From assembly GCA_019359415.1 (NCBI GenBank), contig JAHHHH010000040.1:1-61264 (forward strand): a DNA stretch of 61,264 nt, in the 5' to 3' direction. This DNA is from Iphinoe sp. HA4291-MV1. GTDB taxonomy: Bacteria; Cyanobacteriota; Cyanobacteriia; Cyanobacteriales; Nostocaceae. The notes beneath the pieces are model-generated. The model worked only from the letters and a program-made list of their open reading frames with translations. It made no database searches and was not told where the DNA came from. Position numbers and translations under genes: made by a program. Positions 30,095 through 38,115 of this stretch are shown one piece after another; the stretch's first letter is position 1, and each line of letters begins with the position of its first letter.

Positions 30095-33040
30095 TTAAGA
30101 TGGGATGGCTAGAGGTAACGTGAAGTAGAAGGTGAAACCGCGCTTACGGTTGCAACTAACACCAATTTCACCACCGTGTGCTTTAATAATTTGCCGGCAA
30201 AGATACATTTTTAAGCCAATCCTTGTTGAAGCACTAGCTCGCGGATCGCGCACATACAAATCGAAGAGGCGATCGCACTCCAACTGACTCATGCCCAAAC
30301 CGTCATCTTGAATAGTACAACGAATCCTTCCTGCCTCAACTGTGGCTTCTAGTGTAAACTTTACTCCTGGTGGATTGTGTTGCCAGCTATGAGTCAACAA
30401 GTTGAGAAAAACTTTCTGTAGCTGAGCCGGGTCGGCAATGACTAATGGTAAATCGCCTGGAATCAAATTTTTCACAGTTGAGTGATGCTGTGTCAGCATT
30501 GGCTCCAAATCTCTAATAATTGTAACAATCAATGAGTGAAAAGAAACGACCTCACGATGAAGGACAATTCCCTGTGCTTCGCATGAATGAAGTTCCAGCA
30601 GTGATTCAATCATCTCCAATTGACGGTCATTCCCTTGAATCATGCGCTTAATAATTGAGTGAGATACAGGGAGGGGGGATAAGGGGGATGAGGGGGATGA
30701 GGGGAAAGAATTCTCCTTGTCTGGTGACACTCCCCTCAACTGAGGGAACCTCTGCACGCAAGTGTGCTCTCCTTGTCTTCTTGTCCGCTTGTCTGTTTGT
30801 CCCTGATTGAGTAAATTATTCAATACCATCAAATTGCCTATCACCGAAGTCCGCAGTTCATGGGAAATGGTGTGCAAAACAACATCTTTCACGCTATTCA
30901 ATTCTTGAAGTTCCAGCATTTTCTGCTGTAGCTGTGCAGTACGCTCTTCTACTTGACGCTCCAAATTCGTGTTAAGTTGCTCTAGTTCTTGATAAAGTTG
31001 TCCTTGCTGAATGGCGATCGCGACTTGTTCAGACATCTGTTGGAGCAAATCAATTTCTATAGTAGTCCAATGGCGTGGTTTGCTGCATTGGTTAGCAATC
31101 AACGCACCAAAGAATTCCTTGTCTTGCATGATAGGTACAGCTAAGTTAGCTCTGGTTTGGAATTGTTTATAGAGCGCTTTTAATTTCGGAGATACTGATG
31201 TATTTTTAGTATCTTGAACTACGCGTACCCGATCACTTTTAAGGATTGTTTTCAGTTCTTCTAGAAGAGTTTTATCCTCACTTCTCCAATTTAGGACTGA
31301 TGGATATTTGGGAGCTACTGATTCGGCAAGAATTCTCGACTGGGCATTACTATCATTTAAAGCAATAAAAACTCGATCCGCTTCTAAAAATTGCCGAACT
31401 TCGTTGACGGTGGTTTGTAGAATTTGGTCTAAGTTAAGCGACTGGCGAATTCGCGATAGTGTTTGAGCCAATAGGCGATCGCGTTTTGAGGAGAGGTGCA
31501 GTAATTCTTCGGCACGCTTGCGTTCTGTGATATCATTAGTGACACAAAGCATACAAGGCTCTCCACCCAAAGTAATCACCTCGGCTGAAAACAGCACTAC
31601 TCTTGGCTCACGAGACTTTGTGCGAAGTTCTGTTTCTAAATTGCGAATAAACCCCTGCTCCTGTAGCATTTGTTCTATTCTGGCGCTGTCAGAGGGATTG
31701 ACCCAAATATTCAACTCACTACGGGTACGACCAATCACTTCTTCCCGACAAAAGCCAGTGATTTGTAGAAAAGTGTCGTTGACTTCAACGTAGCGCCCAT
31801 CCTTAAGAGTCAGGATAGTAATTGGGTTAGGACTAGAACAAAAAGCTTTAGAAAACTTTTCCTCTGACTCGCGCAGAGCAAGTTCTGTTTGTTTGCGTTC
31901 GGTGATGTCGTGATTCACTGACAATAAGCAGGGAATATCATCTAAGTGAATGACTTCGGCTGAAAACACTGTAGTCCTGATCTCACCGGACTTGCGGCGG
32001 AATTGCAATTCCATGTTGCGAATAACCCCGTGTTTTTGCAATTCTTGCAACACAGTGATGCGATCGCTCTGGTTCACCCAAATATTTAAATCAAAAGCAG
32101 TACAACCAATCGCTTCCTCTCGTTCATAACCCGATTGTTGTACAAAACTATCGTTAACTTCTATGTAGCGTCCTTCTGCAAGCGTGCTGATCGAGATAGG
32201 ATTAGGGCTGGAACGAAATACTTTAGCGAACTTTTGAGCCAAATTTCCCAAAGCAACTTCCGTTTGTTTGCGTTCTGTAATATCCCTCACAATTGCCAAA
32301 ACTTCGTCTTGTCCGCTAGCAACCAACCGCGCTTCATAATCTCTCATTCCTAAAGGCGTTGACAGTTGATATTCGCATGTTTGCAAAGTTTTTGAATCCA
32401 AAGTTTTTGCAATTGCCTTTTGGCTTTTTAGGGCGACATCTGAAGGTAATAAATCCTGCAAATTTTTCCCGACAATTTCATTTCTGGGAATGTGAAGATT
32501 TGCCCCCTCACCTTTAAAGTCCAGATACTTGCCATCACGACTAATGCGAAACATCAAATCAGGTATAGCATCCAAAATCGCCGCCTCTCGTGCCTCACTT
32601 TCTCGCAATTTTTCCTCCGCTAACTTCCGGTCTGTAATATCTATGAGTAAACCATCCCAAATCATGTCTCCTGATGGTTGTTGTTCTGGGCGAGAAGTGC
32701 CTTGAATCCATTTGAGTTTACCACTGGGAGTGATGATACGACCTTCCCATTGCCAAGGTTCTCCTGTAGTACAAGAGGTGACAATAGATTCTTCAAAAGC
32801 TTTGATATCCTGGGGATGAGTCAGTTTGTTTAGTACTTGAAAGTCTGCCTGCACGACTTCTGGTTCCAATTCAAACAGTTCTCTACATCCAGAACTGGCG
32901 TATATAATAAACTGAGATCCATCTTGCCGCTTCAGGAATTGAAAAATCATCCCGGGTAAGTTAGCAGCAATTTTTTCCAGCAGAGGCAATGCTCCTTGTT
33001 GAGAATTTAGTGTATACAGCGCTTTCACATTTTCATTCAC
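30095..33040 (-). CDS. multi-PAS/GAF histidine kinase with degenerate ATP site
   Basis: 981 residues, soluble. About four PAS/PAC units (20-135, 145-260, 265-385, 390-510), a GAF domain (about 535-690), a coil, and a histidine kinase core with His727 (TISHELRTS). The N box reads NLLTHSWQHNPP: the second, Mg-binding Asn is His884, and the G2 glycines are lost (TRIGLKMYLCRQ). The dimerisation hairpin also carries about 47 extra residues (746-792) encoded by short repeats at 30664-30804. It likely senses but may not autophosphorylate; partnership with the kinase downstream is an inference. Confidence 0.88.
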   Translation of the reverse strand: MNENVKALYTLNSQQGALPLLEKIAANLPGMIFQFLKRQDGSQFIIYASSGCRELFELEPEVVQADFQVLNKLTHPQDIKAFEESIVTSCTTGEPWQWEGRIITPSGKLKWIQGTSRPEQQPSGDMIWDGLLIDITDRKLAEEKLRESEAREAAILDAIPDLMFRISRDGKYLDFKGEGANLHIPRNEIVGKNLQDLLPSDVALKSQKAIAKTLDSKTLQTCEYQLSTPLGMRDYEARLVASGQDEVLAIVRDITERKQTEVALGNLAQKFAKVFRSSPNPISISTLAEGRYIEVNDSFVQQSGYEREEAIGCTAFDLNIWVNQSDRITVLQELQKHGVIRNMELQFRRKSGEIRTTVFSAEVIHLDDIPCLLSVNHDITERKQTELALRESEEKFSKAFCSSPNPITILTLKDGRYVEVNDTFLQITGFCREEVIGRTRSELNIWVNPSDSARIEQMLQEQGFIRNLETELRTKSREPRVVLFSAEVITLGGEPCMLCVTNDITERKRAEELLHLSSKRDRLLAQTLSRIRQSLNLDQILQTTVNEVRQFLEADRVFIALNDSNAQSRILAESVAPKYPSVLNWRSEDKTLLEELKTILKSDRVRVVQDTKNTSVSPKLKALYKQFQTRANLAVPIMQDKEFFGALIANQCSKPRHWTTIEIDLLQQMSEQVAIAIQQGQLYQELEQLNTNLERQVEERTAQLQQKMLELQELNSVKDVVLHTISHELRTSVIGNLMVLNNLLNQGQTDKRTRRQGEHTCVQRFPQLRGVSPDKENSFPSSPSSPLSPLPVSHSIIKRMIQGNDRQLEMIESLLELHSCEAQGIVLHREVVSFHSLIVTIIRDLEPMLTQHHSTVKNLIPGDLPLVIADPAQLQKVFLNLLTHSWQHNPPGVKFTLEATVEAGRIRCTIQDDGLGMSQLECDRLFDLYVRDPRASASTRIGLKMYLCRQIIKAHGGEIGVSCNRKRGFTFYFTLPLAIPS

Positions 33041-33576
33041 ACTCTGACCTTTTTACCTAGAAGTAATAGATGTATGACGGAAGACAACTATTGGCGGTTT
33101 GGCAGTTTCCTGTATTTGGATACCAACCAAACAAATTTTTATAAAAGTCGTTCTTTTTTCAGATTATATTCCTCTGTTCAATTTCGCATTCACCCAATTG
33201 GATGAACCACTTATAACAAGAGCGATTTCAGTAACAACAAGTGAACTTAGTTTTCAACAAGCCATAACGTAATTTAAATGTTATGTCAAGCCAACAAATG
33301 AAATTTGCGATCACTGCAACAATTTCTATCTAAGAGGGTGTTTATGAATAAATTCTTAAGTAACGCACCGTCTTTTTTGGTGCGTTACGCTTTGCGATAA
33401 CACAACGATAGATGCTACAACGGGGACGCTAGTGCAGCACGGCAGAAATAACTAGACAGTTAGGAAAGCTTAAAACCCTGGTTCTGTAAATATTTTTCTC
33501 TCCTGACTTCTGATATCATGTCCGGTTAATCGCTTACGATTAAGCGCCAATTTGAGTCCACCAATAAAAACCTGTT
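33041..33576. other. intergenic region with hairpin and a solo MITE end
   Basis: Upstream of the kinase, plus repeat remnants: a 10-bp hairpin GTAACGCACC / GGTGCGTTAC at 33360-33388, a GATGCTACAACGGGG-type dispersed repeat at about 33410, and a lone MITE end ATATCATGTCCGGTTAA near 33513. No gene. Confidence 0.6.
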
Positions 33577-33895
33577 ATATCATGTCCGGTTGATTAGTTG
33601 TGATTCCCGCAATATCTGCACCCCACCCCTTAATCCCCTCCCGTTAGTAAGGCTACGGTGTACACACAAGTCATCGAGTTGCTCAAAAATCCTTCGGAAC
33701 CTCACCCTGCCCTTCGGGCATCCCTCTCCGAACTCGCGGAGAGGGAAAGATTTTAGCGCACCCTAAAGCGAGGGTGAGGTTAAAAGCGATCCGGTGTGTA
33801 CACCGTAGGTTAGTAAGGGGAGGGGCGGTTTTGGCGCAAGACAAAACCGGGGTGGGGTTGTGCGGGATTTATAAGCAATTAACCGGACATGATAT
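33577..33895. mobile_element. MITE-A copy 1 (153 bp), interrupted by MITE-B
   Basis: Ends are ATATCATGTCCGGTT and the exact complement; the inner ends continue as imperfect repeats to the CCCGCA block. With the 156-bp inner element and one 10-bp target copy removed, the length is 153 bp, identical to copy 2 at 37271, which lies in the opposite orientation. There is no coding capacity and no transposase in the window, so it is non-autonomous. It sits inside a GNAT-type gene. Confidence 0.88.
33653..33808. mobile_element. MITE-B (156 bp) nested in MITE-A, with 10-bp target duplication
   Basis: Perfect 14-bp terminal inverted repeats, CTACGGTGTACACA at 33653-33666 and TGTGTACACCGTAG at 33795-33808. 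The flanks GTTAGTAAGG at 33643-33652 and 33809-33818 are a direct duplication. The uninterrupted copy of MITE-A has this word once, so it gives the empty site. The interior contains a further fold-back (AACCTCACCCT / AGGGTGAGGTT) and the dispersed CCCTTCGGGCATCCCTCTCC palindrome. Confidence 0.93.
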
Positions 33896-34128
33896 AACTC
33901 CTTCGGGTTTTGCAATGGAACGACGGCAAGCTGATAATTGCAACGGGGTCGTTCACCCGCCCACTGAACGAAGAGGCGGAGGAGCTCTGTTGTATGATCA
34001 GATCCCAATTCTTCCGGATCGTAGAATTCGGCATACCGTGGATCAGCATGATAAGCGAGAAAGGCTGGCTCATCTTCCTCTGTAAATTCTCGTAGCAGAA
34101 ACCTGTTTGTGATGATCTCCATATTCAA
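33896..34128 (-). pseudogene. GNAT acetyltransferase fragment cut by MITE-A
   Basis: From the ATG at 34128 the frame gives about 78 residues typical of the N-terminus of RimJ/RimL-like GNAT acetyltransferases (ITNRFLLREFTEEDEPAFLA, then CNYQLAVV). It then runs into the MITE end (residues LYHVRLIAYK are MITE-encoded). The acetyl-CoA-binding motif A is missing, and no continuation is recognisable on the other side of the element. Confidence 0.8.
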
Positions 34129-34156
34129 GAGACGATACCGTAGCCGTCTAACATGA

Positions 34157-34189
34157 GAAAAAAAGGGGAATTAGCATCCTCTAATTCCC
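34157..34189 (-). terminator. intrinsic terminator of cphB
   Basis: On the minus strand GGGAATTAG, a 6-nt loop, CTAATTCCC, then C and a run of seven T. It lies 41 bp past the cphB stop; a textbook rho-independent terminator. Confidence 0.9.
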
Positions 34190-34229
34190 ACTTTATTTCA
34201 AAGTATTTATGAAAAGATAAGTATTTTTT

Positions 34230-35078
34230 TTAAGCAGCCGGTGCAGGGATGACAGTTGTGACAACAGTGCGAGTATCTAGGATAGGTTTGCGGGTTTTTA
34301 AGTTGAATTTGTATCCTTGTGGTAAAATATGAAGTTTTGCTCCACAAACTGCCAAAGGTTCATCCTTCAAAATGTCGTCAACATTGCTGTGCATGACCTC
34401 TGAATCATCAACAACCGTAACACAACCTTCCCCAATAACTTCAAACTGATTATCGGTCACTACTATAGCTGTATTCTCGTCAATACCAAGTCCCAAGACA
34501 ACAGGCTGCTGTGTTAAAGCTGCAATTAAGCGTCCCAAGCGCCCGCGCTGTGAGAAATGTTGGTCTATCACCACTCCGCTTAGGAAAGCTAAACCAGGAC
34601 CCAATTTCACAATTTCCATTCGAGGATTTGTTTCGGAGTCGCCTTCCACAATCATCACGTCTGGCATAACAGCGGCTCCCGCGCTTGTACCTCCTACAAC
34701 TATGCCTTCAGAAAAGCGTTTGTGAATAGCTGCATCCAGTTCGGTATCTTTGAGGACACTCGTGATACGGGCTTGGTCTCCTCCAGTAAAAAATACACCA
34801 GTTGCTTTACCAATTGCTTCTAACGCTGTAGATGAAGATGAATCTTCGCGGCGCTCAGTATCAATTATACGAACATCCTCGGCACCTAGCCGTTCAAACA
34901 CTCTAATATAATTTTCTCCTACTTCTCTTGGCAGTTCTGTCGCAGCCGTCATAATGACAATCCTGGCTTTTATACCTCCAGCGCAGCGAACAAACTCCCG
35001 AAGAATTTGGCAATCCCCTTCCTTATCTTCCGCTCCCCCAATAATGACTAATTGTCGCTTAATTTCACTAGCTACCAT
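34230..35078 (-). CDS. cphB: cyanophycinase CphB
   Basis: 282 residues. Serine peptidase (S51) that cleaves the nitrogen-storage polymer cyanophycin to beta-Asp-Arg dipeptides. The nucleophile elbow GGTSAGAA has Ser132, the same number as in the characterised Synechocystis enzyme; other conserved blocks are LVIIGGAEDK, FTGGDQ and GLGIDENTA. In most cyanobacteria cphB directly precedes cphA (cyanophycin synthetase); here it ends at a strong terminator, and only a broken GNAT gene and MITEs follow. GGAGGCTC lies just before the ATG. Confidence 0.96.
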   Translation of the reverse strand: MVASEIKRQLVIIGGAEDKEGDCQILREFVRCAGGIKARIVIMTAATELPREVGENYIRVFERLGAEDVRIIDTERREDSSSSTALEAIGKATGVFFTGGDQARITSVLKDTELDAAIHKRFSEGIVVGGTSAGAAVMPDVMIVEGDSETNPRMEIVKLGPGLAFLSGVVIDQHFSQRGRLGRLIAALTQQPVVLGLGIDENTAIVVTDNQFEVIGEGCVTVVDDSEVMHSNVDDILKDEPLAVCGAKLHILPQGYKFNLKTRKPILDTRTVVTTVIPAPAA

Positions 35079-37270: not shown

Positions 37271-37423
37271 ATATCATGTCCGGTTAATTGCTTATAAATC
37301 CCGCACAACCCCACCCCGGTTTTGTCTTGCGCCAAAACCGCCCCACCCCTTACTAACGGGAGGGGATTAAGGGGTGGGGTGCAGATATTGCGGGAATCAC
37401 AACTAATCAACCGGACATGATAT
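37271..37423. mobile_element. MITE-A copy 2 (153 bp, uninterrupted)
   Basis: Inverted relative to copy 1 and the same length; ends ATATCATGTCCGGTT and complement. It contains the CTTACTAACGGG target of MITE-B only once, giving the empty site for comparison. A partial third end, ATATCATGTCTGGTTAA, abuts it at 37425-37441. Confidence 0.9.
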
Positions 37424-37424
37424 A

Positions 37425-37441
37425 ATATCATGTCTGGTTAA
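37425..37441. repeat. solo MITE-A end that overlaps the peroxiredoxin stop codon
   Basis: ATATCATGTCTGGTTAA, one mismatch from the MITE-A terminus. On the minus strand its TTAACC provides the TAA stop of the gene at 37438. Confidence 0.8.
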
Positions 37442-37995
37442 GTAGCTGCTTTTTGCAACTCATCGAGTCGTGCTAGAACTTCCTTACTGTGGATGGCTGG
37501 ACTGACTTTAACAAAAGTCTCACGCAGAATACCTTGCGGGTCAATAATAAAGCTGTGACGCACAGATATAAAGCTCATCCAAGAACCGTATGCTTTGCTC
37601 ACCGTGCCGGTGGTATCAGCCAACAAGGGGAATTTTAGTCCTTCTGAATCGCAAAATTCAGCATGAGAATCAACATCGTCAGCGCTAATACCAACAATTT
37701 GAGCTTTTTTTTCTATGTATTTAGGCAAATCTTGTTGAAAGCGACGAGCTTCTATAGTACAACCAGGGGTAAAGTCTTTGGGGTAAAAGTAGAGGACTAC
37801 CCATTGACCGCGCAAGTCAGAGAGGGATAGTTTACCATCGCCAGTGTTTGTTGGCAAAGTAAAGTCAGGTGCAGGTTGATTAATTGCAGGTAGTTTACCA
37901 CCAAGAGCATCAGCAGTTGGGACAAAATTTAACCAACTGATGACGGTCAAACATGTGACAAATAATATACTCAAAAAAGTGCGACGGGAAATCAT
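37438..37995 (-). CDS. exported peroxiredoxin, PrxQ/BCP type
   Basis: 185 residues from the ATG at 37995 (MISRRTFLSILFV); an ATG at 38019 would add 8. The twin-arginine-like hydrophobic N-terminus with TADALG cleavage site (about residue 30) points to export to lumen or periplasm. The thioredoxin fold has the peroxidatic site DFTPGCT with Cys79. The usual PrxQ resolving Cys five residues on is Arg84 (CTIEARR); Cys115 may take that role. It reduces peroxides with thioredoxin. The gene ends inside a MITE terminus. Confidence 0.88.
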   Translation of the reverse strand: MISRRTFLSILFVTCLTVISWLNFVPTADALGGKLPAINQPAPDFTLPTNTGDGKLSLSDLRGQWVVLYFYPKDFTPGCTIEARRFQQDLPKYIEKKAQIVGISADDVDSHAEFCDSEGLKFPLLADTTGTVSKAYGSWMSFISVRHSFIIDPQGILRETFVKVSPAIHSKEVLARLDELQKAAT

Positions 37996-38115
37996 TATGT
38001 ATGTAGACCAGAAACACAACTTAAAATAAGTTTACAATTTTTGTTTTGGTTACTTGATACTCCTCAGTCTAGAAGACTGGGCTACACATACAAAGCCCGC
38101 CTGCGCGTGGCTCAA

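Follow-up and report, generated by a model that had tools for sequence, protein, structure and literature searches.

The transposase of Tn5 serves as the model for cut-and-paste transposition, is widely used in the laboratory and has only a modest preference for its target. In the portion of PMC1525189 available to us, many Tn5 targets are said to be palindromic, the repeat bearing GC at its ends, and ISRm22, a member of the IS4 family, inserts at the axis of palindromy of REP sequences in Sinorhizobium meliloti. Palindrome targeting within IS4 is therefore not new. For subgroup IS50, the accessible text of PMC2266710 gives a length of 1350–1550 bp, direct repeats of 8–9 bp and, in its Table 1, the end consensus CW------Y---CA-A--W-. 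Among cyanobacterial MITEs, those of Anabaena sp. 90 have, according to the part of PMC3542288 at hand, no evident match among the inverted repeats of that genome's insertion sequences.

We analysed a window of 61,264 nucleotides, contig C54 of the draft genome of Iphinoe sp. HA4291-MV1 (7.36 Mb, 140 contigs, 95% complete), in which two such small elements are nested. The features of the locus are as follows.

33577–33895, + strand: outer 153-bp MITE with IS630-type ends, split by the inner element (inverted repeats; 10 uninterrupted copies aligned)
33653–33808, + strand: inner MITE, 156 bp, with IS4-type (Tn5-like) ends (15-bp perfect inverted ends; ends match full-length elements)
33653–33671, + strand: left terminal repeat of the inner MITE (19 bp, 100% against both full-length elements compared)
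33794–33808, − strand: right terminal repeat of the inner MITE (15 bp)
33643–33652, + strand: target duplication GTTAGTAAGG, left copy
33809–33818, + strand: target duplication GTTAGTAAGG, right copy
37271–37423, − strand: uninterrupted sibling of the outer MITE, the empty site
33511–33577, + strand: remnant of an IS630-type element end, left of the outer MITE (67 bp, 91% identical to the end of an element in the relative G005)
33893–34128, − strand: 5′ part of an acetyltransferase-like (GNAT) gene, stopping at the outer MITE

The nested insertion is confirmed and well resolved. The first-pass annotation had placed a 156-bp element with perfect 14-bp ends inside a 153-bp element, between identical 10-bp flanks; the nesting stands and the GTTAGTAAGG repeats match at 10/10 positions, but the ends, CTACGGTGTACACAC, are perfectly complementary over 15 bp, one more than it had given. 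The outer span of 33577–33895 equals 153 + 156 + 10 bp. As that annotation had also seen, the sibling at 37271–37423, on the opposite strand, carries GTTAGTAAGG in a single copy, and the alignment of empty and filled sites it proposed is gap-free once the insert and one repeat are taken out of the window copy. The target is likewise single in nine further copies elsewhere in the host genome, two of which have small deletions away from the target; apart from these two deletions the aligned copies are near-identical. With a single target in ten empty siblings, the order of insertion and the length of the duplication are firm.

The ends of the outer element match those of a 1188-bp element in genome G004, whose transposase pieces score 130.9 bits for IS630 (cut-off 100) and also match DDE_3, which marks the outer element as a MITE whose ends are those of the IS630 family. 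A TA target duplication is usual in this family, and TNA stands on both sides of the outer element in all 15 nearest pairings, the middle base being unequal in six. In the host draft, the IS630 transposase has four partial or distant matches. Since the outer MITE abuts the 67-bp IS630-type remnant, three mobile sequences meet here. On the other side, homology to the acetyltransferase-like homologue of G003 ends at 33892, no more than four bases from the end of the MITE. GNAT-like homologues occur as open frames of 185–233 aa in 9 of 30 relatives, and the gene itself scores 23.1 bits against Pfam PF13302, below the cut-off of 25.4. Its missing 3′ part was not found at 32901–34300 of the window; because that part does not turn up across the MITE, the gene yielded no empty site for the outer element, and none was found among the pairings. 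A further IS630-type end with one core mismatch lies at 37425–37448, one base past the sibling MITE, and falls at the 3′ end of an ORF (37438–38019) that we take to encode a peroxiredoxin.

The inner element belongs to a family dispersed through the host. Its 14-bp end has 43 matches in the host at no more than one mismatch, against 1 for a reversed control pattern, so the end pattern is not a product of chance. Within the window alone, at up to three mismatches, 3 end matches were found and 3.03 expected, no excess over chance; what carries weight is that both ends are perfect and paired, that the target is duplicated and that other copies exist. Ends pair at 12 host loci, 103 to 524 bp long, which use 24 of the 43 matches; for the remaining 19, the stretches read contain no partner within two mismatches. 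Exact duplications of 9–11 bp flank five of the 12 pairings (contigs C14, C54, C68, C95 and C121), duplications with one mismatch another five (C42, C47, C67, C103 and C122), and two (C53 and C63) show none. Copies of 156 bp are found also at C42, C53, C63, C67 and C68. As RNA, the inner element is predicted to fold into a single long hairpin of −77.7 kcal/mol (z −8.5 relative to shuffled sequences).

Several details of these copies were seen in passing. In the interior palindrome of the 156-bp MITE, at 33722–33745, the loop is 8 bases long and is found in either orientation, GAACTCGC in C54, C53 and C121 and GCGAGTTC in C42, C63, C67 and C103, independently of the type of end, as if the spacer flips between the arms. 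The 257-bp copy at C103:5965-6221 (L021) corresponds to the 156-bp MITE lengthened by about 101 bases at this palindrome. In the imperfect duplications at C42 (L004) and C103 (L021), AGT against ACT in the middle is the only difference, which fits either a flipped palindrome centre or a single G/C change.

The first-pass annotation had noted that no mobilising transposase was present. This holds for an intact copy in the draft, but decayed relatives of the parent element are found at C14, C11 and C108. At C14, a 524-bp deletion derivative with a 9-bp duplication keeps both parent ends, with about 195 bp of the left end of the full-length element and 65–85 bp of the right. C11 and C108 have 347 identical bases in common, starting at a left end, and C108 continues into decayed transposase coding sequence. 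A search of the host draft with the C-terminal 321 aa of the transposase gave no match at E ≤ 1e-20. Two sub-threshold NF033590 fragments (22.6 bits; L362 and L363) lie at contig edges, C80:43772-43861 and C98:1-90, with no family ends within four mismatches; they are probably C-terminal pieces of another IS4-type transposase, from a multicopy element collapsed in assembly. As that element has apparently collapsed at assembly gaps, an intact copy of the parent may likewise sit inside a gap of the draft. The PF01609 genes of the host were considered as partners and set aside, as none of the 13 matches has family ends at two mismatches or fewer and two have chance-level ends at three. The family thus looks orphaned in its host, with only decayed parent remnants found in the draft.

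Full-length elements with the same ends, for which the first-pass annotation had proposed a search, are present in relatives. The single-contig genome G051, of the same family as the host, has a 1487-bp element in five copies, all with an open transposase frame, which is 480 aa long at locus L165. No stop interrupts the matched part of the transposase in any of the five, and the frame runs to the last base of the element, where the closing TAG of the terminal repeat serves as its stop codon. Four of the five copies are flanked by exact 11-bp duplications and the fifth by one matching at 9/11 positions. The same-genus relative G001 has two full-length elements of 1572 bp in which the transposase frame is broken. 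Both full-length types and the inner MITE share the 19-bp end CTACGGTGTACACACAAGT; the opposite end of the MITE is identical over 15 bp. Beyond these 15–19 bp per end, the interior of the 156-bp element is unrelated to the full-length elements. Short, non-coding and multicopy, with inverted ends and a duplication length similar to that of its partner, the inner element has the properties of a MITE, and the open frame of the partner suggests that it is autonomous.

The partner is distributed more widely. Part of the G001 transposase finds matches in 13 of 60 genomes, and transposases 31–36% identical, such as the 14 copies in G042, show no such end pairing in the loci read. A wider search, of named records, gave 78 loci, at 12 of which, two being the G001 copies, the ends pair at no more than two mismatches; the others are cut by contig ends or bear other ends. 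Pairings of 1487 bp with exact duplications occur in Calothrix membranacea FACHB-236 (10 bp), Nostoc sp. FACHB-152 (10 bp) and Nostoc sp. LEGE 06077 (11 bp), and contigs of Mucilaginibacter and Saprospiraceae have similar ends with exact duplications of 10 and 12 bp. Several family ends fall within a few hundred bases of one another at L189 (G051:C1:6862719-6866582), L144, L147 and L341, a clustering that suggests repeated insertion into or beside earlier copies. At L183 (G001:C11:147091-148379), an IS630-type transposase frame adjoins a damaged Tn5-like copy, and the two families meet again.

On profile, structural and motif matches, the transposase is a member of the IS4 family and Tn5-like, in keeping with the first-pass guess of an IS4-like mobiliser. 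It scores 389.5 bits against NCBIfam NF033590 (IS4 family; cut-off 160), while its Pfam DDE_Tnp_1 score of 22.3 bits is just below the cut-off of 23. Among solved structures, matches at E ≤ 0.001 are confined to the Tn5 transposase and its inhibitor protein; the alignment to the Tn5 transposase (E 2.2e-37) runs over 43–471 of the 480 aa and covers the catalytic regions. The frame contains the Y-(2)-R-(3)-E-(6)-K motif of the IS4 family as YTWRWRIEQLFAILK. As in other members, the transposase of the G051 element is encoded in one frame and the duplication is about one helix turn, 10 or 11 bp in 36 of 43 exact cases. The end, CTACGGTGTACACACAAGTG, fits all seven stated positions of the IS50 consensus, and the 1487-bp G051 element lies within the IS50 length range, the broken G001 copies being 1572 bp. 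The duplications, in contrast to the 8–9 bp of IS50, are 9 bp in only 4 of the 43 cases and 10–12 bp in 39. Because this length departs from the IS50 rule, we call the element Tn5-like, of the IS4 family, and do not file it in subgroup IS50.

These duplications recur at many of the loci where the ends are paired. The 18-bp end is found at no more than one mismatch in at least 25 of 41 genomes, the host included. Ends were sampled from these genomes (30/30 of those listed in G051, 23/36 in G013, 8/17 in G011 and a few in most others). With at most two mismatches allowed in each end, 99 pairings were obtained at 83 loci. An exact duplication of 9–12 bp flanks 43 of the loci, a duplication with one mismatch 17, and neither 23, so that further copies with the same ends and long duplications, predicted by the first-pass annotation, do exist. 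The 43 exact duplications comprise 20 of 11 bp, 16 of 10 bp, 4 of 9 bp and 3 of 12 bp, with no exact repeats of 7 or 8 bp among the paired loci. When right flanks were shuffled among the 99 pairings, a mean of 0.99 exact duplications (maximum 6) was obtained, compared with the 43 observed; with one mismatch allowed the mean was 3.4 (maximum 9), compared with 60. Full-length-size pairings, at 19 loci, show an exact duplication at 12, one with a single mismatch at two, and neither at five.

The inner element is thus very probably a non-autonomous MITE that an IS4-family, Tn5-like transposase with a symmetric target has moved, and the nesting would follow from this target. The transposase would recognise the 19-bp end CTACGGTGTACACACAAGT, and the element would be cut out and pasted into a new target, a chemistry proposed by analogy with IS4-family precedent, with the target copied over 9–12 bp, mostly 10 or 11. 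The enzyme would favour a pyrimidine tract before the duplicated bases and a purine tract after them, and many of these sites are centres of palindromic repeats. The outer MITE, with its unrelated IS630-family ends, carries such a site at its centre, where the inner element lies. What is observed directly is that the ends are shared, that duplications and empty sites exist and that relatives carry full-length elements in which the frame is open; we infer that a transposase of the Tn5-like group moved the window copy.

The target preference was read from the 43 sites with exact 9–12 bp duplications, with 4300 positions in the same loci as controls. Pyrimidines make up 92% of the six bases left of the duplication and purines 91% of the six right of it (controls, 49% and 50%), a comparison in which the sites are non-independent, many being copies of the same repeats, and represent survivors in a sample of relatives. 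Both arms reach at least 5/6 at 35 of the 43 sites and at 58 of the 4300 controls. Palindromy, with small shifts of the centre allowed, is 0.7 or more at 27 of the 43 sites and 65 of the 4300 controls; without shifts its mean is 0.57 against 0.25. The commonest core among the 11-bp duplications is CCTTNNNAAGG. The strict target, CTCCCCTTNNNAAGGGGAG, is palindromic, so that a search of the 7.36-Mb host genome at no more than one mismatch gives 44 hits for 22 places. At 14 of these 22 places the sequence is CTCCCGTTAGTAAGGGGAG, as at the centre of the outer element; eight of the 14 belong to the aligned outer-element copies. A large share of the strict targets still unoccupied thus belongs to the outer MITE, and in one of its copies the site has been hit. 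Because it carries the preferred target at its centre, the nesting finds an explanation, and this centre is likely its cause.

How the target is recognised can be read in more than one way. It is conceivable, but we think unlikely, that this cyanobacterial and Bacteroidota branch of Tn5-like elements reads its target as a hairpin or cruciform, such that any palindromic repeat is a landing pad; if so, the interior palindrome of the 156-bp MITE would mean that each insertion makes the next landing site. A target defined by structure only was tried by swapping arms among sites and rejected: true pairs have an arm complementarity of 0.669 and swapped ones 0.628 (p 0.0055), and in a 27-site subset the values are 0.639 and 0.602 (p 0.047). 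Given so small a gain from true pairing, we prefer the reading by sequence consensus. The same small gain, together with the fact that many sites are repeats and that survivors alone are visible, would also suit an account in which palindromic repeats are hit merely as tolerated, intergenic and numerous sequences, with no real preference of the transposase. We regard this as quite improbable, since the strict target CTCCCCTTNNNAAGGGGAG exists at just 22 places in the host, since the arms are still 91% pyrimidine and 90% purine at the 27 of 43 sites that a simple CTT...AAG filter does not catch, some of them near variants and the window's own site among these, and since two sites in Bacteroidota contigs fit the target in part.

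Two further explanations concern the origin of the inner element itself. The inner ends read CTAC...GTAG, recalling the GTAG-tagged REPs that PMC3733652, in the part available, reports from filamentous cyanobacteria, and the element might on that ground be a REPIN-like REP pair moved by a RAYT (Y1 tyrosine) transposase. This origin is very improbable and was dropped, because flanking duplications of 9–12 bp are present and the full-length elements with the same ends encode an IS4-family DDE transposase. RAYT transposases are not known to make a target duplication. Recombination among repeats, with the direct repeat as the leftover of a tandem duplication, could draw on the abundance of repeats and on the unlike flanks at C53, C63 and L151, as inter-copy recombination would give, yet it has next to no chance of being correct when the target is single in ten siblings and the duplications differ in sequence but are alike in length across copies.

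Transposition by a Tn5-like enzyme, the reading we favour, gives a MITE that seems orphaned in its host a partner in related genomes, and offers a mechanism for nested repeats in cyanobacterial genomes. A natural relative of Tn5 with a long target and an 11-bp duplication would also allow the determinants of target choice and of staggered-cut length to be tested by comparison. A literature search with the 13-base end string CTACGGTGTACAC gave no match, and among the matches listed for IS4, IS50, REP targets and cyanobacterial MITEs (titles and the starts of abstracts, ISfinder being outside the search) no paper describes the family; the element may already be named in ISfinder.

Set beside the systems described at the outset, the parts are of known kinds. 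The inner element resembles the MITEs of Anabaena sp. 90 and Nezha in being small, multicopy and non-coding with inverted ends, the likeness to Nezha being drawn from citations and not from a comparison of ends; unlike the Anabaena MITEs as presented in the available part of PMC3542288, it has a matching full-length element in related genomes. The outer MITE has its ends in common with the IS630-family element of 1188 bp in G004. ISRm22 is similar as an IS4-family element that lands at the palindromy axis of a repeat, but it makes six-base direct repeats and has no MITE derivatives mentioned in the accessible portion of PMC1525189, and it is placed in subgroup IS4Sa in that of PMC2266710. The closest likeness is to the IS50/Tn5 subgroup, with the YREK motif, the alignment to the Tn5 transposase, the 1487-bp length and the end consensus in common. 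The differences are duplications of 9–12 bp, mostly 10–11, where the consulted text of PMC2266710 gives 8–9; a longer, symmetric pyrimidine/purine target; and occurrence in cyanobacteria and some Bacteroidota. For a Tn5-like element it is unusual to duplicate mostly 10–11 bp or to use a long symmetric target, and a transposase of this kind that combines the two is a variant of a known theme.
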